A stretch of 39,457 nucleotides of DNA from an uncultured Pseudomonadota bacterium. Its GTDB lineage: Bacteria; Pseudomonadota; Gammaproteobacteria; Methylococcales; Methylomonadaceae. The notes below the pieces were generated by a model. The model was not told where the DNA came from, did no database searches, and saw only the letters and a list, made by a program, of their open reading frames with translations. This document shows, one piece after another, positions 6,740 through 39,457 of the stretch (position 1 is the stretch's first letter; each line of letters opens with the position of its first letter). The DNA lies in NCBI GenBank assembly GCA_903834465.1, contig CAILJB010000124.1:1-39457 (forward strand), in the 5' to 3' direction. Made by a program: the position numbers and the translations under genes.

Positions 6740-8338
6740 ATGGCTATAAGTGCAGCAACAAAAGCAGCAACCGACGCACTCGCGGTAAATCGTGCGCCGA
6801 CCAGTGTCAATGCTCAAGAAGTGCATAGATGGTTACAAAGTTTTACTTGGGATTTTGAGAAAAATCGCACGAAGTATCCGACCAAATACAAAATGGCTAA
6901 CGATACCAAAGAGCAATTCAAGCTCATCGCCAAAGAATATGCGCGTATGGAATCGGTCAAAGACGAACGTCAATTTGGTAGTTTACAAGACGTGTTAGCG
7001 CGTGTTGATGCGGCAAAGCGGGTGCATCCAAAATGGAATGAAACCATGAAAGTGGTTTCTAACTTTTTGGAAGTGGGCGAATACAACGCGATTGCGGCAA
7101 CAGGTATGCTGTGGGATTCGGCGACTGCTCCTGAACAAAAAAATGGTTATTTAGCGCAAACGCTCGATGAAATTCGTCACACAAACCAATGTGGTTATGT
7201 GAATTACTATTTTTCTAAAAATGGTCAAGACCCAGCCGGTCACAACGATGCGCGTCGTACTCGCACCATCGGGCCACTTTGGAAAGGCATGAAGCGCGTA
7301 TTTTCAGACGGCTTTATTTCAGGTGACGCGGTTGAATGTTCGATTAACTTGCAATTAGTCGGCGAAGCGTGTTTTACCAATCCGTTAATTGTAGCGGTAA
7401 CAGAATGGGCGGCGGCAAACGGTGATGAAATTACACCGACTGTTTTCCTCTCCATTGAAACCGACGAATTGCGCCACATGGCAAACGGTTATCAAACGGT
7501 TGTATCGATTGCTAATGACGAAGCGGCTTCAAAATATTTGAATACCGATTTAAACAACGCTTTCTGGACACAACAAAAATACTTCACACCTGTTTTAGGA
7601 ATGGCGTTTGAATACGGCAGTCATTTCAAAGTTGAACCGTGGGTGAAAACGTGGAATCGCTGGGTATATGAAGATTGGGGTGGTATTTGGATTGGTCGTT
7701 TAGGCAAATATGGTGTGGAATCACCAGCCAGTTTGCGTGACGCGAAAAAAGACGCTTACTGGGCGCACCACGATTTATTTTTAATCGCTTATGCGTTATG
7801 GCCAACCGGTTTCTTCCGTTTAACACTGCCAACTGCTGAAGAAGCGGAATGGTTTGAAGCAAATTACCCCGGCTGGCACGACCATTACGGCGTAATTTAC
7901 GAAGAATGGCGTGCGCGAGGTTGTGAAGACCCAAGCAGCGGTTTCATTCCCTTGATGTGGTTTATCGAAAACAATCACCCAATTTATATCGACCGCGTTT
8001 CACAAGTGCCTTTCTGCCCAAGTTTATGCAAAGGCGCAAGCACATTGCGTGTTCATGAATGGAACGGCAAATTGCATTCATTCTCTGACGATTGGGGCGA
8101 ACGCATGTGGCTTTCTGAACCTGAACGTTATGAATGCCAAAACATCTTTGAACAATATGAAGGACGTGAATTGTCTGAAGTCATTGCAGAATTGCACGGT
8201 GTTCGTAGCGATGGCAAAACGTTGATTGCTCAACCACACACCTCTAAAGATGGCAGATTGTGGACACTCGACGACATCAAAAAATTAAATTGTGTCTTTG
8301 CTGATCCTTTGAAATCATTCGAAGCGGGAGATAAATAA
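6740..8338 (+). CDS. mmoX: sMMO hydroxylase alpha subunit
   Basis: This subunit holds the di-iron centre that oxidises methane to methanol; two copies each of alpha, beta and gamma form the cytoplasmic hydroxylase. The ATG at 6740 follows GAGGAG. All six iron ligands are present at the same numbers as in Methylococcus capsulatus: Glu114, Glu144 and His147 (DEIRH), Glu209, Glu243 and His246 (DELRH). Cys151 and Thr213, near the active site, are also conserved. The 532-residue protein is essentially collinear with known MmoX (527 residues), with a slightly longer C-terminus. Nothing suggests loss of function. It is the first gene of the operon and abuts mmoY with no gap. Confidence 0.98.
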   Translation: MAISAATKAATDALAVNRAPTSVNAQEVHRWLQSFTWDFEKNRTKYPTKYKMANDTKEQFKLIAKEYARMESVKDERQFGSLQDVLARVDAAKRVHPKWNETMKVVSNFLEVGEYNAIAATGMLWDSATAPEQKNGYLAQTLDEIRHTNQCGYVNYYFSKNGQDPAGHNDARRTRTIGPLWKGMKRVFSDGFISGDAVECSINLQLVGEACFTNPLIVAVTEWAAANGDEITPTVFLSIETDELRHMANGYQTVVSIANDEAASKYLNTDLNNAFWTQQKYFTPVLGMAFEYGSHFKVEPWVKTWNRWVYEDWGGIWIGRLGKYGVESPASLRDAKKDAYWAHHDLFLIAYALWPTGFFRLTLPTAEEAEWFEANYPGWHDHYGVIYEEWRARGCEDPSSGFIPLMWFIENNHPIYIDRVSQVPFCPSLCKGASTLRVHEWNGKLHSFSDDWGERMWLSEPERYECQNIFEQYEGRELSEVIAELHGVRSDGKTLIAQPHTSKDGRLWTLDDIKKLNCVFADPLKSFEAGDK

Positions 8339-9517
8339 ATGGGTATTCAAGTAGAAAGCGGTAAAAGAGGTTTAACCGATCCAGATATGGCGCGAATCAT
8401 TGCCGATGCAGTGCCTGCTCAACCTTTAGATTCCAACAACAAAATGAACTATTTTGTTAAACCGCGTGGTCGCCGTTTAACAGAATATGAAATTTTATGT
8501 TGCTACGCGCAACCCACACCGGATTGGATTCCAGGTGGTTTGGATTGGGGCGATTGGACACAAAAATTTCATGGTGGTCGCCCGTCGTGGGGCAACGAAA
8601 CCACAGAATTACACACCACCGATTGGCACAAACACCGTGACCCCGCAAATCGCTGGCACGCGCTTTATGTCAAAGATAAAGCCGAAGAATGGCGTTATAC
8701 CGATCGTTTTTTAAAAGCCTATTCAGCCGACGGTCAAGTGCGTTCTATCGATCCTGTGTGGCGCGACGAAGTGTTAAACGATTATTTAGGTGCATTCTGC
8801 TTTAGCGAATACGGTTTGTTCAATTCCCATTCTTCCGCGTCGCGTGATTGTTTAGGTGATACGTTGCGGATGAGTATTGCCATGATCGGTTTGGACAAAG
8901 TTGATAACGCCCAAATGATTCAATTGGAAAGAACATTCTTGGCAAAATTAGTTCCTGGTTTTCCTGAATCAACGGACGAACCGAAAAAAGAATGGACGCA
9001 AGGCACGATTTATAAAAGTGCGCGTGAAACCGTTGAAGACATTTGGCAAGCCACTTACGATTGGAACGAAATTTTGTGGTCTGGTCACATGGTTTATGAC
9101 CCCTTATTCGGTCAGTTTGTACGTCGTGAATTCTTCTTGCGGTTGTCATCATATTTTGGCGACAACTTAACGCCGTTCTTTATCAATCAAATGCAGTTGT
9201 ACCATTCACAAACCAAAGGCATTACAGGTGATATGTTCTTCCATTGTTTGGCAGATGACGTTGAATTTGGTGATTACAACAAACGCTTGTTGCGTGCATG
9301 GAATGACAAATGGTTGCCAAGAACGGTCAACGCATTAAAAGATTTCATGGGTATTTTCGCCAAAATTCCTGAAATCGAAGGCGTGACCAGTAAAGATGCT
9401 ATCGAAGCCGCGCTTGAGCGTGTTTTTGATGATTGGAAACGTGATTACGCTGACCCTATCAGTTACAAAGTAGACACGGCGGTACTCATTAAAACCGTTC
9501 TCTCTGGTCTTAAATAA
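8339..9517 (+). CDS. mmoY: sMMO hydroxylase beta subunit
   Basis: A structural partner of MmoX that lacks the iron ligands and helps form the hydroxylase core and the docking groove for MmoB and MmoC. Its ATG directly follows the mmoX stop codon, and GGGAG near the end of mmoX is the ribosome site, so translation is coupled. The 392-residue protein contains the highly conserved stretches GGLDWGDWTQKFHGGRPSWG, VKDKAEEWRYTDRFL and FGQFVRREFF seen in MmoY. Length agrees with the 389-395 usual for the family. The next gene, mmoB, starts 10 bases on. Confidence 0.97.
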   Translation: MGIQVESGKRGLTDPDMARIIADAVPAQPLDSNNKMNYFVKPRGRRLTEYEILCCYAQPTPDWIPGGLDWGDWTQKFHGGRPSWGNETTELHTTDWHKHRDPANRWHALYVKDKAEEWRYTDRFLKAYSADGQVRSIDPVWRDEVLNDYLGAFCFSEYGLFNSHSSASRDCLGDTLRMSIAMIGLDKVDNAQMIQLERTFLAKLVPGFPESTDEPKKEWTQGTIYKSARETVEDIWQATYDWNEILWSGHMVYDPLFGQFVRREFFLRLSSYFGDNLTPFFINQMQLYHSQTKGITGDMFFHCLADDVEFGDYNKRLLRAWNDKWLPRTVNALKDFMGIFAKIPEIEGVTSKDAIEAALERVFDDWKRDYADPISYKVDTAVLIKTVLSGLK

Positions 9518-9527
9518 GGAACAACAA

Positions 9528-9950
9528 ATGTCTAAAAGTTCAAATTCTTATGGCGCAGGCATCATGGCAAAAACAGGCAAAGCGTTTGCCGATGAATATT
9601 TTGCTGAAGAAAACCAAGTTGTCCATGAAAGTAACGAAGTGGTATTGGTATTAAAAAAATCTGACGAAATCAACGTAATTGTTGATGAATATTTGTTGGG
9701 TGATCATGCCGATGATAATAAAACCTTAGTGATTGAAGATCGTTCAGGTTATTGGTGGTTAAAAGCAACCGGCAAAATCGAAGTCGATTGCTCGGAAGTT
9801 GCTGAATTGTTGGGTAAAAACTTCTCGGTTTATGACTTTTTAGTAGACGTGTCGTCAACGATTGGTCGTGCTTACACCTTGGGCGATACCTTCACCATCA
9901 CCTCAGAATTGATGGGGCTTGATACCAAACTGAAAGATTTACAATCTTAG
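9528..9950 (+). CDS. mmoB: sMMO regulatory (coupling) protein B
   Basis: A small cofactor-free protein that binds the hydroxylase, tunes its redox potential and gates substrate and oxygen access. The 140-residue sequence has the strongly conserved ENQVVHES, LKKSDEI, FSVYDFLVDVSSTIGRAYTLG and FTITSELMGLD stretches. The N-terminal tail, which is needed for activity, reads SYGAGIMAKTG. In Methylococcus the bond after this methionine (Met12-Gly13 in mature numbering) is where the protein is cut and inactivated; here the following residue is alanine, so the tail may be cut differently. AAGGA precedes the start; mmoZ starts 9 bases after the stop. Confidence 0.97.
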   Translation: MSKSSNSYGAGIMAKTGKAFADEYFAEENQVVHESNEVVLVLKKSDEINVIVDEYLLGDHADDNKTLVIEDRSGYWWLKATGKIEVDCSEVAELLGKNFSVYDFLVDVSSTIGRAYTLGDTFTITSELMGLDTKLKDLQS

Positions 9951-9959
9951 GAGTTCACT

Positions 9960-10463
9960 ATGGCTAATTACAAAATTCATGATAATCCTGTCCGCGATGA
10001 GTGGACAGCAAAAATTGATGGGCTAAAAACCTTAGCACAAGGTTCGGCGTTTTTGGTCGATTTTCGTAAAAAACACACCACACCATTTCGTCAAGATTAT
10101 TCACTCGAACTCGATTGGGGTTGGATTGAATGCAAAATCGAAGAAAAAGTGGCAATGCTCAAACATGCCGAACTAAACGACCAACAATTCCTTAACAACA
10201 ACGTTTGTGGCGCGAATGCACAAGCGGTTGCGGATGCGGTTGTGGCGAAAATGGCGGCTTGTACGGATAAATATGAAGCAGAAAAACTTCATATCAATTT
10301 CAGAATTGAAAACAAGCCACCGATTATGCCAGTGAATGTATTTATGGATACAGATCGCATTTTAGGGACTAAGTTGATGGAACTTAGAAACACCGATTAT
10401 TACGCCTTGCCATTAGCAGAATTGCGTAAGGCGCGTGGTGTGACAGTGATTACGCTGCAATAA
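9960..10463 (+). CDS. mmoZ: sMMO hydroxylase gamma subunit
   Basis: The smallest hydroxylase subunit, lying on the outside of the alpha-beta core. The 167-residue protein begins MANYKIHDNPVRDEW and contains the conserved SLELDWGWIECKIEEKVA and RIENKPPIMPVNVFMDTDR stretches. Length matches the usual 162-170. TAGGAG stands ahead of the ATG. The gene is followed after eight bases by a strong hairpin, then mmoD. Confidence 0.96.
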   Translation: MANYKIHDNPVRDEWTAKIDGLKTLAQGSAFLVDFRKKHTTPFRQDYSLELDWGWIECKIEEKVAMLKHAELNDQQFLNNNVCGANAQAVADAVVAKMAACTDKYEAEKLHINFRIENKPPIMPVNVFMDTDRILGTKLMELRNTDYYALPLAELRKARGVTVITLQ

Positions 10464-10470
10464 AACGTTG

Positions 10471-10507
10471 AAGTGTCTGCCAAGTTCGATTGTGCTGGCA
10501 GGCACTT
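10471..10507 (+). promoter_or_regulatory. Intercistronic hairpin between mmoZ and mmoD
   Basis: AAGTGTCTGCCA (10471-10482) pairs with TGGCAGGCACTT (10496-10507) through 12 bp with one G-U pair and a 13-base loop, followed by the pyrimidine-rich TTCCTCTCTCTC. It resembles a weak intrinsic terminator or an mRNA end-protecting stem, and would let the hydroxylase subunit genes be made in excess of mmoD and mmoC. Confidence 0.6.
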
Positions 10508-10536
10508 TTCCTCTCTCTCATCAAAATACTAAAACC

Positions 10537-10797
10537 ATGTTAGAAACATTAAATGCTTCGGCGTATCCAGAAAAAAGCAACCCCAATTCGGAACTGACCA
10601 AACTTTATGATTCACAACGCTATACAGCGTATACCGAAGATTTGGAATTTATGTGGCGATGGACGATTTATCAAGACAATAAACTGATTCAAGAAGGTTG
10701 TTCGTTAACTTTCGACGCTTCGCAACGTTCGGTAAATCATGTGCTAGCATTTTTTAATATGAGTAATAAAAACCAAAAGGCAAAGCAGGAGTTGTAG
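10537..10797 (+). CDS. mmoD: sMMO accessory protein MmoD
   Basis: MmoD binds the hydroxylase, inhibits it in vitro, and has been proposed to take part in copper-dependent switching between methane monooxygenases. The open frame reaches back to a TTG at 10468, but that codon sits at the base of a hairpin; the ATG at 10537 gives 86 residues and I prefer it, although no good ribosome site precedes it. The conserved core is YTAYTEDLEFMWRWTIYQDNKLIQEGCSL, which matches MmoD of Methylococcus (about 103 residues) in the WRW and QEGCS positions. The N-terminus is variable in the family. The end of the gene carries the AGGAG for mmoC. Confidence 0.85.
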   Translation: MLETLNASAYPEKSNPNSELTKLYDSQRYTAYTEDLEFMWRWTIYQDNKLIQEGCSLTFDASQRSVNHVLAFFNMSNKNQKAKQEL

Positions 10798-10800
10798 TTA

Positions 10801-11838
10801 ATGGCAAACACGCATCAAGTAAAAATTATTACCCAAGATAACGAATCGGTTACTTTTGAATGCCGTTCGGATGAAGATGTTATTAGCGCGGGATTACGCC
10901 AAGATATTTATTTAATGGCTTCGTGTCGTGAAGGCGGTTGTGCGACGTGCAAAGGTTTTTGTGCGAAAGGCGATTACATTATGGGCAAATACAGCTTTCA
11001 AGCTCTGCCCGATGAAGAAGAAGCCGCTGGCGAAGTGCTGCTTTGTCGTTGTTACCCCACCACGGATATTGAAGTTGAAGTGCCTTACACTTATGACCGC
11101 ATTTCGTTTTCTCCAGAAGATTTATATTTTGAAACGGAAGTGACTGAAATTTCGCAAATTTCAAGTAATGTCATGCGTTTGTTATTAAAACGAACCGGTG
11201 ATGATTTACAAATTAAGTTTGATTCGGGGCAGTTTTTCGATTTAGAAATCCCAAATACCACCACAACACGTTCTTATTCACCTGCCAATACGGCAAATAA
11301 AAAAGGCGAATTAGAATTTTTAATTCGCATTGTTGACGGGGGTAAATTTTCAACGTATTTGAAAAATGATGCGAAAGTCGGGCAAAAAATCCAAGTTAAA
11401 AGTGCATCGGGCGTTTTTGGTTTAAAAGAAAATGGCTTTACGCCACGTTATTTTGTGGCGGGCGGAACAGGTTTAGCTCCTGTTTTATCAATGGTTCGTC
11501 GGATGCACGAATGGGAAGAGCCGCAAAAATGTGTGATTTATTTTGGTGTGAATACGCAAGAAGAAGTCTTTTTTTTACAGGAATTGGAAAAATTAGCCAA
11601 GGACATGAAAACGCTGGAATTGCGAATCTGCGTCTGGAAATACACTGACGACTGGCACGGCGAAAAGGGCAGTGTGGTTGATATTTTACGCCGCGATTTA
11701 ACGGAAACCGGTGCAAAACCGGATTTATATTTGTGCGGTCCGCCGGGAATGGTGGATGCGACTTTTGCTGTTTGCGATGAGCTTGGCATTCCAAAAGAAC
11801 GTATTTATTTAGAAAAATTTTTACCCAGCGGTTCTTAA
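10801..11838 (+). CDS. mmoC: sMMO reductase
   Basis: Moves electrons from NADH through FAD and a [2Fe-2S] cluster to the hydroxylase. The 345-residue protein has a plant-type ferredoxin domain with cluster cysteines Cys42, Cys47, Cys50 and Cys82 (SCREGGCATC and LLCRC), then an FAD domain with RSYSPAN near residue 160, and an NAD domain with GGTGLAPV and CGPPGM. These are the same positions as in Methylococcus MmoC (348 residues). Its AGGAG ribosome site lies within the last codons of mmoD. It is the last of the catalytic genes. Confidence 0.97.
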   Translation: MANTHQVKIITQDNESVTFECRSDEDVISAGLRQDIYLMASCREGGCATCKGFCAKGDYIMGKYSFQALPDEEEAAGEVLLCRCYPTTDIEVEVPYTYDRISFSPEDLYFETEVTEISQISSNVMRLLLKRTGDDLQIKFDSGQFFDLEIPNTTTTRSYSPANTANKKGELEFLIRIVDGGKFSTYLKNDAKVGQKIQVKSASGVFGLKENGFTPRYFVAGGTGLAPVLSMVRRMHEWEEPQKCVIYFGVNTQEEVFFLQELEKLAKDMKTLELRICVWKYTDDWHGEKGSVVDILRRDLTETGAKPDLYLCGPPGMVDATFAVCDELGIPKERIYLEKFLPSGS

Positions 11839-12167: not shown

Positions 12168-13853
12168 ATGACAAAACAAATTATTTACAACCCGCAAGCG
12201 CGTTTACGATTGATGCACGGTATTGATAGCGTGGCGCGAGCGGCGGTTGTCACGATGGGAAGTGCAGGGCCTGCGGTGATGATTCAACACCGTACCGATG
12301 GAATTATGCCAATTTTCACTCGTGATGGCGTAACGGTGGCGCGGTCAATCAATTTTGAAGACAGAATTGCGGATTTAGGCGGACGGATGTTGCGCGATGT
12401 TGCCGGTGCAGTTTCTCGACAAGTCGGTGATGGCACAACCACCGCCATTGTTCTCGCACAAAAATTGGCGCAAGAAAGTTTGAAAAGCGTTGCCGCCGGT
12501 TTTCATCCATTGCAATTGAAAAAAGGATTGGATTTGGCATTAACATTGGTTGAAAAAAATTTGCTAGATAACTCTGTTAAAGACGTTACCACAGATTGGA
12601 TTGAAAAAATTTCTGCTGTCGCCACCAAGGATGAAAAAGGAGTTGGAAAATTATTAGCTCAAGCTCTTGCAGAGCTTGGCTCAGAGGGGCAGCTAACATT
12701 CCAACTCGGCAATGGACGTGAAGATGAATTAGACATTGTCGATGGTGTGCATTACGAACAAGGTTATTTATCGCCGTATTTTGCCACCGATAAAACCCGT
12801 GCCGAAGCGGTACTCGATAATCCGTATATTTTGTTATATGACCGTGAAATTCATGACTTAATGGATTTAATTCCGATTTTAGAAGAAGTCAAAGCACAAG
12901 GTCGGGCGTTGCTGATTATTGCAGATAACGTAATTGATAAAGCCTTGACGGGATTATTGCTTAATCATGTGCGAGGGATTTTCAACGTCGTTGCCGTAAA
13001 AGCCCCTGGTTTTGGTGATAAACGCATCGACCGGCTTAAAGATTTAGCGTTATTAACGGGCGGACAGGCAATTTTAGACGATTACAGCAGTCCAAAACTC
13101 GAACACGTTACACTCGATTTATTAGGTCAAGCTCAGCGCGTCGTGATTACTGAAACGACGACTACGATTATTGGCGCAAAAGGCGATGACGAACTTGTTA
13201 AAGAACGAATTAAAAATTTGCGTGAGCAAGCAGATTTAATTCTCGCTATTAAACCGGGTACAGGTTCGGCAACCGGCAATAAACACGATTTCGAAGAATT
13301 AGAAGAACGGATTGCTTTGCTATCAGGCAAAACAGGCGTTTTCAGTGTCGGTGGCACAACAGATTTTGAAATCAAAGAACGCATGGTTCGCATCGAAAAT
13401 GCTTATATGTCGGCAAAAGCCGCACTTGAAGAAGGCATTTTACCTGGTGGTGGCGTAGCGTTATTTAATTGCATCCAAATGTTAAATACCGTCATCGCTG
13501 AAAATGCCGAGCAGCAACAAGGCATTACAATTATGAAAACCGCTCTTGCTGCGCCATTGCAAAATTTAACGCGCAATGCGGGCTTAAATCCGGAAATTGT
13601 AATTTCTAAATTAAATGCCGCTGAGGACTCTCATTTTACCGTCGATACGCAATATCAACATTACGGTAATTTTTTAGACATCGGTATCATCGATCCCGTG
13701 AAAGTGATGCGTATCGCGTTACGCAATGCCGTAAGCGTTGTCACCACCATGATGACAACAGAGGTCATTGTAATGGATGTTCCCGATTTATCGATTATGG
13801 ACGGTTATTCACCCGAATGGGCTGCGGCAACGCGCGAAGATCCACGCTCTTAA
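12168..13853 (+). CDS. mmoG: GroEL-like chaperonin of the sMMO cluster
   Basis: A paralogue of GroEL that in other methanotrophs is needed for sMMO expression and is thought to help fold the hydroxylase or the activator MmoR. The 561-residue protein keeps ATPase motifs (DGVTVA near residue 48-54, GDGTTTAIVLAQ near 86) and the second-half GGGVALFN. It departs from housekeeping GroEL in the start (MTKQIIYNPQARLRLMHGID) and the tail: it ends in SPEWAAATREDPRS and lacks the Gly-Gly-Met repeats. It is therefore not a normal GroEL, and no groES is nearby. A terminator follows 100 bases later. Confidence 0.93.
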   Translation: MTKQIIYNPQARLRLMHGIDSVARAAVVTMGSAGPAVMIQHRTDGIMPIFTRDGVTVARSINFEDRIADLGGRMLRDVAGAVSRQVGDGTTTAIVLAQKLAQESLKSVAAGFHPLQLKKGLDLALTLVEKNLLDNSVKDVTTDWIEKISAVATKDEKGVGKLLAQALAELGSEGQLTFQLGNGREDELDIVDGVHYEQGYLSPYFATDKTRAEAVLDNPYILLYDREIHDLMDLIPILEEVKAQGRALLIIADNVIDKALTGLLLNHVRGIFNVVAVKAPGFGDKRIDRLKDLALLTGGQAILDDYSSPKLEHVTLDLLGQAQRVVITETTTTIIGAKGDDELVKERIKNLREQADLILAIKPGTGSATGNKHDFEELEERIALLSGKTGVFSVGGTTDFEIKERMVRIENAYMSAKAALEEGILPGGGVALFNCIQMLNTVIAENAEQQQGITIMKTALAAPLQNLTRNAGLNPEIVISKLNAAEDSHFTVDTQYQHYGNFLDIGIIDPVKVMRIALRNAVSVVTTMMTTEVIVMDVPDLSIMDGYSPEWAAATREDPRS

Positions 13854-13954
13854 ATTTTTCAGTTGTTCCCGAGTATTCAAAATATTCAAGCGTAAATCAG
13901 CTTCATCCTACCTGCTCTCCTAAACGGGGCATTTCTATTTCCAGCGTGAAATAA

Positions 13955-13991
13955 AGGCGGTGCGACACTATGTCGCATTGCCTCTTTTTTT
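13955..13991 (+). terminator. Intrinsic terminator at the end of the sMMO operon
   Basis: AGGCGGTGCGACA and TGTCGCATTGCCT form a 13-bp stem with two G-U pairs and a CTA loop, followed by CTTTTTTT. It ends the mmoX-mmoG transcript and leaves mmoR to its own promoter in 13992-14109. I see no -24/-12 element in that gap, so mmoR is probably not itself sigma-54-dependent. Confidence 0.9.
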
Positions 13992-14109
13992 GAATTTGTT
14001 ATTGTGTCGCTCTCATTGTCGATTTATTCAAATTGCATTCAAAATCAATCATTTTTGTAACTTTTTGGTTTGCAATCGACACCATTCGATATAGAAAGTT
14101 AATAGAAAG

Positions 14110-15870
14110 ATGGACGTAAATATTAATATTCCAAACAAAGTTAAATTAAGTCACGAAACTTTATTGCTTCGGCACACCATTGAGTTTGAAGTCGATCGTC
14201 CTATTCAGGCGTGGCAATGGATGAATCAAACTCGTTCTGTTCCCGAGCAAGGTGATTGGGTTCGCCCAGAAGTCAGTGACGCATGGCGGCGTTGTCTTGA
14301 AGATTACAGCTTGCCATTGGGAAATTATGCGAATTGGGATAATTATCCGGTTATTGAATCTGCTGTTGAAAATACGAACCCTGCATCAAATATTGAAGAA
14401 CTGATTAAACATCTCAGTGAGAACTTTCACACATTTTTAAAAGAAGCTGGCGTGATGCTCGTTTTGACAGCTTCTGATGGACGATTACTTTGCGTCATTG
14501 GCGAGCAAAAATTACCGAGTTCTTTTTTAACACGCATGTATGTTGCAGGGGCAAATTGGTCGGAATCGGTTTTAGGTAATAATGGTATTGGCACCGCAGC
14601 GGTGATTAAAAACCCCGTTGCTTTTCAAGGCATGGAGCATTTTTTAAATGTATTGCATCCGTTTACGACGGTTGGTTATCCGCTCCTTGACGAAAACGGT
14701 AAATTAAGAGCTGTCTTGGGTTTAGTGAGCGATCATCAAGAACGGATGAATTCGTTATTTGCGTTTTTGCATTTAATTTGTGTGTTGGTCAATACTAATT
14801 TGCCATTAGCAAAAAATCCGACCGCGCAAGAACGTGTATTGGAAAAAATCCATTTTAGTTCGACAAAAAAATCACCACCTCCACTTAATAATTCCACCAT
14901 TTCCAAAGAATTAGACCAGCTACTTCAAAAAGCGGTGAAGTTGCAAACCCATAAAATCCCCATTTTGGTCACAGGCGAATCGGGTGTGGGTAAAGATCAT
15001 TTTGTGAATTTACTTAAAAATGCAGGTCCTCGAAAAAATGCGCCGTTAGTTGCCATTAACTGTGCTTCCATTCCGCATGATTTGATTGAAAGTGAATTAT
15101 TTGGTTACGAAGCAGGAAGTTTTACCGGCGCGAAATCGAGTGGCAAAGCAGGGAAATTCGTGTTGGCGGACAAAGGTATTTTATTTTTGGATGAAATCGG
15201 TGATATGAGTTTTGATTTGCAATCGACGTTGTTGCGTGTTTTAGAATCGTCTGAATTTACCCCTGTTGGTGGAAATAAGCCGATTCGTGTTGATGTACAA
15301 ATTGTAGCGGCAACTAACGTGCGATTATTGGAAGCAATTGAGGCGGGACGTTTTCGTAGAGACCTTTACTATCGATTAAATGGCGCACAAATTCATTTAC
15401 TACCGTTACGCGATAGACCGGATAAACATTCTATTATTCATAGCATTTTGCAAAAAGAATTGAATGCAATTGCACCAGATGGCGAAATTGAAATTTGTTC
15501 AGAGGTCATTCATTTAATTGACCAACATCCGTGGCCGGGAAATATTCGACAATTGATTAGCGTTATTCGAGCGACGCTTTACACGGCAAGCAGTTCATTT
15601 ATTACGGTTCAAGATTTACCGTTAGATTTTATTTCTGAGTTGAAAGAATACGAAACGAAAGAAAATCCAATTCCTCCCCTGTTTATCTCAACAGTGCCGG
15701 AAGCGATGAGCTTAATGGATTGGGAGTGTCATGCGGTAAAATCTGCGCTCAAAAATTGTGGCGGCAATATCTCTTTAGCCGCCAAAACATTAGGCATTAC
15801 GCGCACCACACTGTATAAAAAAATCGACCGCTTTGGATTGAGTCGGGAAAACGCATTCTTTGTTGATTAA
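14110..15870 (+). CDS. mmoR: Sigma-54-dependent activator of sMMO genes
   Basis: An enhancer-binding protein of 586 residues. An N-terminal sensory region (about residues 60-230, GAF-like, with VMLVLTASDGRLLCVIG and NNGIGTAAVIKNPVAF) resembles AcoR-type activators. The AAA+ domain has Walker A GESGVGKD (289-296), the sigma-54 contact loop, Walker B ILFLDEIGD (357-365) and a RRDLYYRLN arginine-finger segment. A Fis-type helix-turn-helix (GNISLAAKTLGITRTTLYKKI) ends the protein. The contact loop reads GSFTGA instead of the usual GAFTGA. Position behind mmoG and the sigma-54 promoter of mmoX make MmoR the natural assignment. Its stop codon overlaps that of hslO on the other strand. No mmoQ/mmoS two-component pair, as found in Methylococcus, lies in the window. 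Confidence 0.92.
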   Translation: MDVNINIPNKVKLSHETLLLRHTIEFEVDRPIQAWQWMNQTRSVPEQGDWVRPEVSDAWRRCLEDYSLPLGNYANWDNYPVIESAVENTNPASNIEELIKHLSENFHTFLKEAGVMLVLTASDGRLLCVIGEQKLPSSFLTRMYVAGANWSESVLGNNGIGTAAVIKNPVAFQGMEHFLNVLHPFTTVGYPLLDENGKLRAVLGLVSDHQERMNSLFAFLHLICVLVNTNLPLAKNPTAQERVLEKIHFSSTKKSPPPLNNSTISKELDQLLQKAVKLQTHKIPILVTGESGVGKDHFVNLLKNAGPRKNAPLVAINCASIPHDLIESELFGYEAGSFTGAKSSGKAGKFVLADKGILFLDEIGDMSFDLQSTLLRVLESSEFTPVGGNKPIRVDVQIVAATNVRLLEAIEAGRFRRDLYYRLNGAQIHLLPLRDRPDKHSIIHSILQKELNAIAPDGEIEICSEVIHLIDQHPWPGNIRQLISVIRATLYTASSSFITVQDLPLDFISELKEYETKENPIPPLFISTVPEAMSLMDWECHAVKSALKNCGGNISLAAKTLGITRTTLYKKIDRFGLSRENAFFVD

Positions 15871-37174: not shown

Positions 37175-39457
37175 ATGTCCGCAAATAACGCTGAAATTAA
37201 CAATCTTTTAAATCAAGAATATAAACAAGGTTTTGTAAGCGATATTGAAGCAGATACGTTTGCGGCAGGTTTAAACGAAGACGTAATTGCTCAATTATCG
37301 AAAGTGAAAGGCGAACCTGATTTCATGTTGGAATATCGGTTAAAAGCCTTTCGTCATTGGCAAAAAATGCCATCGCCTGATTGGGCGCAACTCAAAATAG
37401 ACCCGATTGATTATCAAGCGATTAGCTACTATTCCGCGCCCAAAAGTAAAAACAAACCGAAAAGTTTGGATGAAATTGACCCTGAAATTTTAGAAGCCTA
37501 CAAAAAATTAGGTATTCCGCTTGCCGAACAAGAACAATTAGCAGGCATCGCGGTTGATGCGGTATTTGATAGCGTTTCAGTTGCCACGACTTTCAAAGGG
37601 AAATTGCACGATGTAGGTGTGATTTTTTGCCCGATTTCTGAGGCGATTCGTGATTATCCTGAATTGGTGAAAGAGTATTTAAGTTCAGTCGTTTCGGTTG
37701 GAGATAATTTTTTTGCGGCGTTAAATTCAGCCGTTTTTACCGATGGTTCGTTTGTGTATATTCCAAAAGGCGTGCGTTGCCCGATGGAACTTTCGACGTA
37801 TTTTCGTATCAATGCCAGCAACACGGGGCAGTTTGAACGGACGTTGATTATTGCCGATGAAGGCAGTTATGTGTCGTATTTGGAAGGCTGTCATCCATCG
37901 GGTGAACAGGTTTTAACGCCAAAAGGTTGGCAAGAAATTCAAACTTTAAAATCGGGTGATACCGTTTATGACCACAACGGCGACCCACAAAGAGTGAAAT
38001 CGTTGATGGTGCGAAATTATCACGGTGACATGATTACTGTGCGTCCTGTTTCGCGCCACAACACGTTTCGTTTGACAACAGAGCATCCCGTTTTAGCGAT
38101 TAAACGCGAAGTTGTGCAAGTCAAACGTGCGTCGCGTAATCCAAATTGGTTACCCGAAGTTTCTACGCAAAAATTGCTGGAAGCAGAACCTGCATGGCTG
38201 TCTGCAAAAGAATTGGAAGCTGGAGATTTTATTTTTGTGTCTAAATTGGCGCATCAAATTGAATCACAATTTACAGATGCCGAAGTCGAATTGTTAGGCT
38301 ATTACTTAGCGGAAGGTAGTTCCTATTTCAATACGGCAAACAAACAATATACAAATCAACTTTCGTTTGGTTTGCATGAAAAATTGTTAGTGCAACACGT
38401 TAAAAAATTAACCGAGCAAGTCACTGGCAGACCTGTTTATTTGACGGAACAAATTGATAGAAATGGCGCGAGTTTGTCGTTTTATTCTGAGCATTATCAC
38501 AATTGGTTTATCGAACACGTTGGCAAAGGTGCGACAAATAAAATCTTGAGCGATGCGTTAATGAGTTTGCCACCAGCGCAAATTAAAATTTTCTTGGATG
38601 CTTATTTGGCAGGTGATGGAAATATCTGCGAACGACGTAATTCTAAAATGATTCGTTTCTGTACTGCGTCAAAAAAGTTAGCCGAGCAAGTTCAAATGCT
38701 TTTGAATTACGTTGGTATTTTTGCGTGGATTCAAACACGCGCTGGCGGCGAAACGAAATTTTCAAATCAATCAGACAGAATTATCAATCGTCAACCTTTG
38801 TATCACGTTGGTTACACAGCGGATAAAACGTGGGACATGGTTCGTGAAACGGAAGATTATTTTATCGTGCCAATTCGTGAAGTCAGTTATGAACCATTTG
38901 AAGATTTAGTGTTTAACATTGAAGTTGAAAATACACACAGTTATTTAGTCAAAGGTGTAGCGGTTCACAATTGCTCTGCGCCCCAACGCGACGAAAACCA
39001 GCTCCACGCGGCTGTCGTCGAATTGGTCGCGTTGAAAGATGCCGAAATCAAATACTCAACCGTGCAAAATTGGTATCCAGGCGACAAAGAAGGCAAAGGC
39101 GGAATTTATAATTTCGTGACCAAACGCGCGTATTGCAAGGGCGATAATTCCAAAGTGTCGTGGACGCAAGTTGAAACAGGTTCGGCGATTACTTGGAAAT
39201 ACCCCAGTTGCATTTTGAAAGGTGATAATTCGGTCGGTGAATTTTATTCGGTTGCCGTCACGAACAATTTGCAACAAGCCGACACAGGCACAAAAATGAT
39301 TCACGTCGGCAAAAACACCAAAAGCACCATCATTTCCAAAGGCATTTCCGCTGGCAAAGCGCAAAACACTTATCGCGGTTTGGTCAAAATTTCCAGCAAA
39401 GCCGAAAACGCCCGAAATTATACGCAATGTGATTCGCTACTCGTTGGCGATAAATGC
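37175..39457 (+). CDS. sufB: SufB Fe-S scaffold subunit with an intein, 3' end off the window
   Basis: SufB is the core scaffold of the SufBCD iron-sulfur assembly complex. From ATG at 37175 the frame stays open for 761 codons to the edge. The N-extein is 238 residues (ends EGSYVSYLEG), then a 361-residue intein, then a C-extein starting CSAPQRDENQLHAAVVELVAL. Joined, the extein reads SYLEG-CSAPQRDENQLHAA, which is the standard SufB sequence, so splicing restores a normal protein of about 480 residues, of which about 80 are missing here. The intein splits off at the conserved cysteine corresponding to the one at the same place in the Mycobacterium tuberculosis SufB intein. No sufR or iscR gene is visible upstream; the 37103-37174 gap holds a GGTATT..AATACC inverted repeat. 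Confidence 0.93.
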   Translation, partial: MSANNAEINNLLNQEYKQGFVSDIEADTFAAGLNEDVIAQLSKVKGEPDFMLEYRLKAFRHWQKMPSPDWAQLKIDPIDYQAISYYSAPKSKNKPKSLDEIDPEILEAYKKLGIPLAEQEQLAGIAVDAVFDSVSVATTFKGKLHDVGVIFCPISEAIRDYPELVKEYLSSVVSVGDNFFAALNSAVFTDGSFVYIPKGVRCPMELSTYFRINASNTGQFERTLIIADEGSYVSYLEGCHPSGEQVLTPKGWQEIQTLKSGDTVYDHNGDPQRVKSLMVRNYHGDMITVRPVSRHNTFRLTTEHPVLAIKREVVQVKRASRNPNWLPEVSTQKLLEAEPAWLSAKELEAGDFIFVSKLAHQIESQFTDAEVELLGYYLAEGSSYFNTANKQYTNQLSFGLHEKLLVQHVKKLTEQVTGRPVYLTEQIDRNGASLSFYSEHYHNWFIEHVGKGATNKILSDALMSLPPAQIKIFLDAYLAGDGNICERRNSKMIRFCTASKKLAEQVQMLLNYVGIFAWIQTRAGGETKFSNQSDRIINRQPLYHVGYTADKTWDMVRETEDYFIVPIREVSYEPFEDLVFNIEVENTHSYLVKGVAVHNCSAPQRDENQLHAAVVELVALKDAEIKYSTVQNWYPGDKEGKGGIYNFVTKRAYCKGDNSKVSWTQVETGSAITWKYPSCILKGDNSVGEFYSVAVTNNLQQADTGTKMIHVGKNTKSTIISKGISAGKAQNTYRGLVKISSKAENARNYTQCDSLLVGDKC
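37889..38971 (+). mobile_element. Intein in SufB with LAGLIDADG homing endonuclease
   Basis: A protein-splicing element of 361 residues in frame within sufB. Block A starts with Cys1 (CHPSGEQVLTPKGWQEIQTL), block B has TTEHPVLA with the catalytic Thr-x-x-His, block F reads VFNIEVENTHSYLVKG, and block G ends VAVHN before the +1 cysteine. All splicing residues (Cys1, block B His, the final His-Asn, Cys+1) are present. Two LAGLIDADG-like helices are present: LLGYYLAEGS at about 38294-38323 and FLDAYLAGDGN at about 38591-38623, with Glu and Asp as acidic residues, so the endonuclease looks intact and the element possibly still able to home. Confidence 0.95.

Follow-up and report, generated by a model that had tools for sequence, protein, structure and literature searches.

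The SufB protein of Mycobacterium tuberculosis contains an intein in which oxidation joins Cys1 to Cys+1, and which keeps SufC and SufD from binding until it has spliced, as reported in PMC8529194, citing Topilina 2015 and Huet 2006. According to PMC8891592, His-5 and His-38 in the N-extein of this protein influence N-cleavage, and PMC6006206 describes SUF itself as the system used when iron is scarce or under oxidative stress. Redox control of SufB splicing is already a published idea and is not new. The SufB inteins found in the literature, as far as titles and the beginnings of abstracts reveal, are mycobacterial; among the matches listed, mostly from non-subscription sources and without InBase, no SufB intein of a methanotroph or of another gammaproteobacterium was found, although such a negative result is weak. 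The locus described here provides a relative outside pathogens.

This locus lies at the end of the window, i.e. the whole stretch of 39,457 nucleotides that was analysed, from an uncultured bacterium of the Methylomonadaceae. The window stops at 39,457 because the contig ends there (G000:C124:1-39457). Sequence comparison and structure modelling indicate that sufB very probably carries a class 1-like intein with an intact endonuclease, inserted at the SufB sulfur-entry cysteine, belonging to a phylum-crossing lineage and not recently arrived. From 37175 to the window end at 39457, the forward strand reads as a single open frame, with 761 codons present. The initial annotation had proposed that this frame is interrupted by 361 residues at the YLEG-C cysteine, and its coordinates for the insertion, 37889-38971, proved exact. 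The N-extein (37175..37888, 238 codons, ending in SYVSYLEG) was delimited from the frame, the SufB models and alignment with Escherichia coli SufB (5awf), and the intein (37889..38971, Cys1 to Asn361) from the frame, the same alignment, empty sites in relatives and a structure model. The 5awf alignment also placed Cys+1 (38972..38974) and the C-extein (38972..39457), which is cut by the contig end.

SufB models flank the gap on both sides (NF008773, 735.9 bits; TIGR01980, 514 bits), and 5awf aligns with frame residues 15-240 and 600-761. In this alignment, E. coli position 254 corresponds both to frame residue 239 (the intein Cys1) and to frame residue 600 (Cys+1), and the insertion directly precedes the residue aligned with E. 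coli Cys254, the published sulfur-entry residue. Removal of the segment was predicted to rejoin a normal SufB, and it does: both halves match the SufB models and 5awf, and an uninterrupted sufB is found in 16 of the 18 genomes of the genus, which also rules out that the segment is part of normal SufB. Family matches and fold matches rule out a chance open frame. The remaining 80 codons of sufB are found at the end of another contig of this genome, C68; comparison with the congener G081 suggests that C124 and C68 are adjacent, with two bases missing between them. With these codons supplied, sufB looks intact, at 842 residues as in G081.

The residues characteristic of class 1 inteins are present, namely Cys1 and Cys+1 as nucleophiles, a TxxH block B, a penultimate His and a terminal Asn. 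By alignment, block B reads TTEH (38075..38086, forward strand), and blocks F and G, assigned from the alignment and the intein_Cterm model, read VFNIEVENTHSYLVKGVAVHN (38909..38971, forward strand), with H360 and N361. C1, T63, H66, H360 and N361 occur in 64 of 64 alignment rows, Cys1, the terminal Asn and Cys+1 having been conditions of the search, as the penultimate His was not. The Asp of block F, a usual intein residue according to PMC8891592, is replaced by Asn343 in all 64 rows, the positional equivalence of the two being a reading by eye. This Asp is usual in class 1 and not strict. The statement that all Hint blocks are present needs this one nuance, of Asn343 in block F.

Both LAGLIDADG motifs, which had likewise been proposed, are intact, and the endonuclease looks so too. 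The first motif, LLGYYLAEG (residues 135-143, 38291..38317, forward strand; alignment and structure model), contains the acidic E142, and the second, LDAYLAGDG (residues 236-244, 38594..38620, forward strand; alignment, model and Pfam LAGLIDADG_3), contains D243. The two positions are both acidic in 59 of the 64 rows, one being lost in the other five. Scores were 45.8 bits for Pfam LAGLIDADG_3 (cut-off 22.5), 22.3 for NCBIfam intein_Cterm (over its cut-off of 15.6) and 29.5 bits for Pfam Intein_splicing (under its cut-off of 35.8). An AlphaFold2 model of the intein, built from the 64 rows, had a mean pLDDT of 95.0 and a pTM of 0.91 and, together with Foldseek, recovered the Hint fold. The first 16 Foldseek matches in the PDB were all chains of inteins bearing homing endonucleases, the best being TliVMA 7qsu (E 8.8e-21, TM 0.72), with 1vde and 2cw7 within the first five; a profile search of the intein also matched PI-PkoII 2cw7, at 1.7e-24.

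The host is a methanotroph, as had been proposed: the window encodes a soluble methane monooxygenase cluster (6740-11838 and 12168-15870), comprising two hydroxylase subunits, mmoB, mmoZ, mmoD and mmoC, followed by a GroEL-like gene and a sigma-54 activator, and the genome has two PF02461 matches. The first hydroxylase subunit has a Pfam match and no NCBIfam match at 1e-10. Downstream of sufB on C68, on the same strand, lie sufC, sufD, sufS and sufU, with other genes between them. In this genome, which is 97% complete, a SufB search returned one SufB and a second, weak match that is the SufD gene, and the only NifU_N protein found lies within the suf cluster, so that SUF looks like the only assembly system and splicing would be essential. 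The suhB/alr neighbourhood had been read as a sign of lateral homing, a point of little weight: alr adjoins sufB in the fetched stretches of seven of the 17 other congeners, some of these stretches being cut by contig ends.

An HD phosphohydrolase gene and an 83-residue ORF lie between the end of sufB and sufC in the window's genome (L110 7888-10280), a FRG-domain gene fills the gap in G081 (L111 602-1507), other ORFs occur there in G155, G109, G013, G063, G185 and G137, and in G161, G149, G040 and G167 the gap is only about 50 bases; the stretches fetched for G096, G128 and G179 yielded no sufC. The idea that the intein makes the sufB-sufC interval a hotspot of inserted genes was dropped, because congeners with empty sites also have genes there. 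Beside sufB of G081 (L111 5327-8999), there is a gene with LRR and AAA domains and, further on, an ORF without a Pfam match, which give the mere impression of a McrBC-type pair.

A sufB gene is present in each of the 18 genomes of the genus. Two of them, the window's genome and G081, carry the intein, and in the other 16 the site is empty and reads SYVSYLEG joined directly to CSAPQRDENQLH. Identities of the N-flank were used only for G081, G155, G119 and G173, the remaining rows being misaligned by a one-codon indel. Across the family, the SufB intein occurs in four of 237 genomes and two of 29 genera, the window's own and that of Methylovulum, which is represented by records L077 and L088 and in which the strain Methylovulum psychrotolerans Sph1 has the related intein, a count obtained with the 64-row profile at E 1e-15 from five matching genomes minus one non-SufB match, which by eye is a terminase intein (G146). 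With the window intein as query at E 1e-5, six of 201 family genomes matched, four of them in SufB, and five of 369 genomes of the class, with a SufB match in the window's own genome only (the others were judged by eye). At phylum level, the 64-row profile at E 1e-15 matched one of 398 sampled genomes, again the window's own, and the SufB intein is rare within Pseudomonadota. Ribonucleotide-reductase-like proteins with inteins of another kind were also noticed by eye in G081 and other genomes (L144, L027, L028, L030, L008).

A wider census used the junction pattern Asn-Cys-(Ser/Thr, a few others)-Ala-Pro-x6-LHAAVVE, run over genome contigs. It returned 75 stretches, all of which read as a SufB C-extein after a segment ending in His-Asn, SufB identity being taken from motifs and trees; of the four methanotroph loci, L077, L082 and L088 are among them. 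This figure is a lower bound, because only loci with Asn, Cys+1, LHAAVVE and particular Ser/Thr codons can match. Sixty-six of the 75 could be read to the first junction; 63 of these inteins have 300 residues or more, and the remaining three have 147, 171 and 273. By record title, the archaeal hosts include Thermoplasmata, Micrarchaeota, Aenigmatarchaeota and Heimdallarchaeota, and the bacterial hosts include several groups of Patescibacteria, Chloroflexi, Acidobacteria, Cyanobacteria, Latescibacterota, Bipolaricaulota and Gammaproteobacteria. L044 and L046 are SufB mini-inteins of Micrarchaeota at the same site, with 171 and 147 residues, and in L056, an acidobacterial SufB intein, an unrelated stretch appears by eye to replace the endonuclease, with both splicing ends kept. 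A viral collection contained no stretch with the junction pattern, and the four-row intein alignment found just one remote match, at 27%, when a viral or plasmid carrier was sought. Searches by tblastn matched 130 plasmid and 32 phage records; the best 20 of 130 and 20 of 32 were all below 26% identity and, where named, are annotated as other genes, mostly methyltransferases. No viral or plasmid vector is proposed.

The carrier had been presented as a gammaproteobacterial methanotroph. To it must be added at least 12 further records, with the titles Gammaproteobacteria, Proteobacteria or Pseudomonadota, that carry SufB inteins of another lineage at the same site. In the intein tree (64 rows including the window; nine unreadable rows and the short L044, L046 and L056 left out), the four methanotroph inteins group together (100/100) within a larger clade of 13 rows (100/100) that also holds Latescibacterota, Cyanobacteria and Acidobacteria; the nine-row fork nearest to the methanotrophs is weakly supported (86/84). 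The 12 other gamma- or proteobacterial inteins make up a clade of their own, next to a euryarchaeal row, and a single clade of methanotroph and other gammaproteobacterial SufB inteins was rejected (AU p 8e-6). In the extein tree, limited to 59 rows of sufficient length, methanotrophs and 11 other gammaproteobacterial rows share a branch (96/82). The extein data are nevertheless compatible with a clade of methanotrophs, Cyanobacteria, Acidobacteria and Latescibacterota (AU p 0.155), so that the conflict between intein and extein rests mainly on the intein tree and on path ratios.

Median intein/extein path ratios, calculated only for pairs with an extein path above 0.02, were 0.70 from the methanotrophs to Acidobacteria, 0.68 to Cyanobacteria, 0.81 to Latescibacterota and 2.98 to the other Gammaproteobacteria. 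Within groups, they were 1.28 for Acidobacteria (3 pairs), 1.47 for Cyanobacteria (3), 1.35 for Gammaproteobacteria (54) and 2.21 for Thermoplasmata (55), and inside the methanotrophs the median of six pairs was 0.66, with five at 0.63-0.74 and one at 1.34. The low ratios inside the methanotrophs suggest either transfer between the two genera or slow intein evolution in this lineage, and a slow rate could explain part of the low ratios. Taken together, the intein tree and the path ratios argue that the element moved between phyla, and name neither donor nor direction; the inteins of the other Gammaproteobacteria may equally be the foreign ones.

The lateral homing suggested in the initial annotation is thus supported as lateral spread by the intein tree, and is unsupported as a recent arrival in the genus. 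Between the inteins of G000 and G081, dN is 0.019 and dS 0.45, and the exteins have a dS of 0.51 (N) and 0.40 (C). The synonymous distances of intein and exteins are alike, suggesting that in these two genomes the intein is about as old as the surrounding gene; judged from these sequences, it does not look like a recent arrival. That the intein homed very recently from another methanotroph, for instance Methylovulum, is highly improbable: the intein path between window and Methylovulum (0.20-0.21) is indeed shorter than the extein path (0.32-0.34), so that a certain amount of transfer may have followed the divergence of the two genera, but the identity is just 84% in amino acids and 74% in DNA, and the G000/G081 distances fit one occupied ancestor. 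It is also unlikely that the intein is a decayed passenger, which still splices, has a dead endonuclease and owes its patchiness to loss alone. Such decay would agree with the two occupied sites among 18 congeners, with the mixing of carriers and empty genomes on the SufB tree, with the five rows of 64 that have lost an acidic catalytic residue and with the short relatives L044, L046 and L056, which lack both motifs. At this locus, however, both acidic residues are kept, and over residues 121-320, a boundary that is the analyst's own cut, omega between G000 and G081 is 0.055 (95% interval 0.021-0.104 from 300 codon bootstraps) at a dS of 0.36. The Methylovulum pair gives 0.081 (0.031-0.166) over the same residues, and the exteins of the two pairs 0.024 and 0.026 (bootstrap medians). 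The endonuclease region is therefore conserved under purifying selection, which argues for its use, although the domain might be conserved for a role in stability instead. The SufB DNA tree unites both carriers with three genomes whose site is empty in a clade of five (100/99), a pattern that would correspond either to two gains or to a single gain with loss or replacement at least once. In a phosphoketolase DNA tree, the two carriers are not sisters. The phosphoketolase matches L113, L114, L115 and L123-L126, from seven of 17 genomes, contain in-frame stops in the region that matched and have open frames of about 800; perhaps these stops lie only in the stretch before the true start codon. 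Some features count against the overall reading of the locus: GC3 of the intein is 0.343, below the 0.435 of its own extein, Pfam Intein_splicing stays under its cut-off, and block F lacks the usual Asp.

It is rather unlikely that the intein is kept as a regulator of the kind raised in the initial annotation, with oxidation of Cys1 and Cys+1 delaying SufB maturation and making Fe-S assembly redox-responsive. Both cysteines are present in the window, SUF is seemingly the only system of its genome, and in M. tuberculosis SufB, according to PMC8529194, oxidants produce a disulfide between Cys1 and Cys+1. Any such function would be dispensable, however, since the site stands empty in 16 genomes of the 18 in the genus, and a search of 237 family genomes found no SufB intein in 233 of them. 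Blocking SUF under the iron limitation or oxidative stress for which it is described (PMC6006206) also seems counterproductive, and the positions of His-5 and His-38 (PMC8891592) are occupied by Ser and Arg in the window. Both histidines occur in four of 66 precursors, counted from 67 N-exteins of which one was too short. The methanotroph intein must therefore manage without them and, if SufB inteins splice, the M. tuberculosis account of His-5 and His-38 cannot hold for most. A further idea, distinctly unlikely and more speculative, starts from the fact that splicing uses as its +1 nucleophile the very sulfur atom to which persulfide sulfur is passed in mature SufB. If SufS with SufU/SufE could already load the Cys+1 of the precursor, this persulfidation would prevent splicing, and the proportion of free to loaded or oxidised Cys+1 would set the rate of SufB maturation. 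Were such persulfide gating true, inteins at this site, found across many phyla, would be a sulfur- and redox-gated checkpoint of Fe-S assembly and not only homing parasites.

The preferred reading, of a class 1-like element with an intact endonuclease at the sulfur-entry cysteine, implies a sequence of events that can be proposed from the residues and the fold. Translation would yield an 842-residue SufB precursor, in which Cys1 would attack the bond after Gly-1 and the chain would move onto Cys+1, the future Cys254; Asn361 would then cyclise with the help of His360, freeing a SufB of 481 residues. The endonuclease would cut intein-free sufB alleles, leading to copying of the element into them. 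The insertion site probably persists because the active-site loop around this cysteine is well conserved between hosts and because only exact removal restores the gene. The element belongs to a lineage that it shares with Cyanobacteria, Acidobacteria and Latescibacterota. In the census, a single insertion point at the sulfur-entry cysteine is filled in 75 stretches, which come from many phyla of bacteria and archaea, and the occupied and empty natural alleles within one genus offer a system for the study of homing and of conditional splicing of SufB.

Compared with described and related systems, the intein resembles that of M. tuberculosis SufB (Pps1) in its host protein, Gly-1/Cys1 junction, His-Asn end and Cys+1, as described in PMC8891592. 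The insertion points are likely to be identical. The same source gives 359 residues with an endonuclease and an N-extein of 252 residues for M. tuberculosis, against 361 and 238 in the window, and the mycobacterial N-extein has His-5 and His-38 where the window has Ser and Arg. TliVMA 7qsu, PI-SceI 1vde and PI-PkoII 2cw7 share the same Hint and LAGLIDADG fold, but are 11-18% identical to the window intein and reside in other host proteins. Other Gammaproteobacteria have SufB inteins of 357 residues at the same site (for example L068, L104, L095); these inteins are 31-34% identical to the window intein, belong to a separate clade and have lost the first acidic residue in four of 12. Those of Cyanobacteria (L036, L091, L100), Acidobacteria (L043, L048, L080, L092) and Latescibacterota (L037, L076), although from other phyla, share both the site and the 100/100 clade, and are 59-67% identical to the intein of the window.
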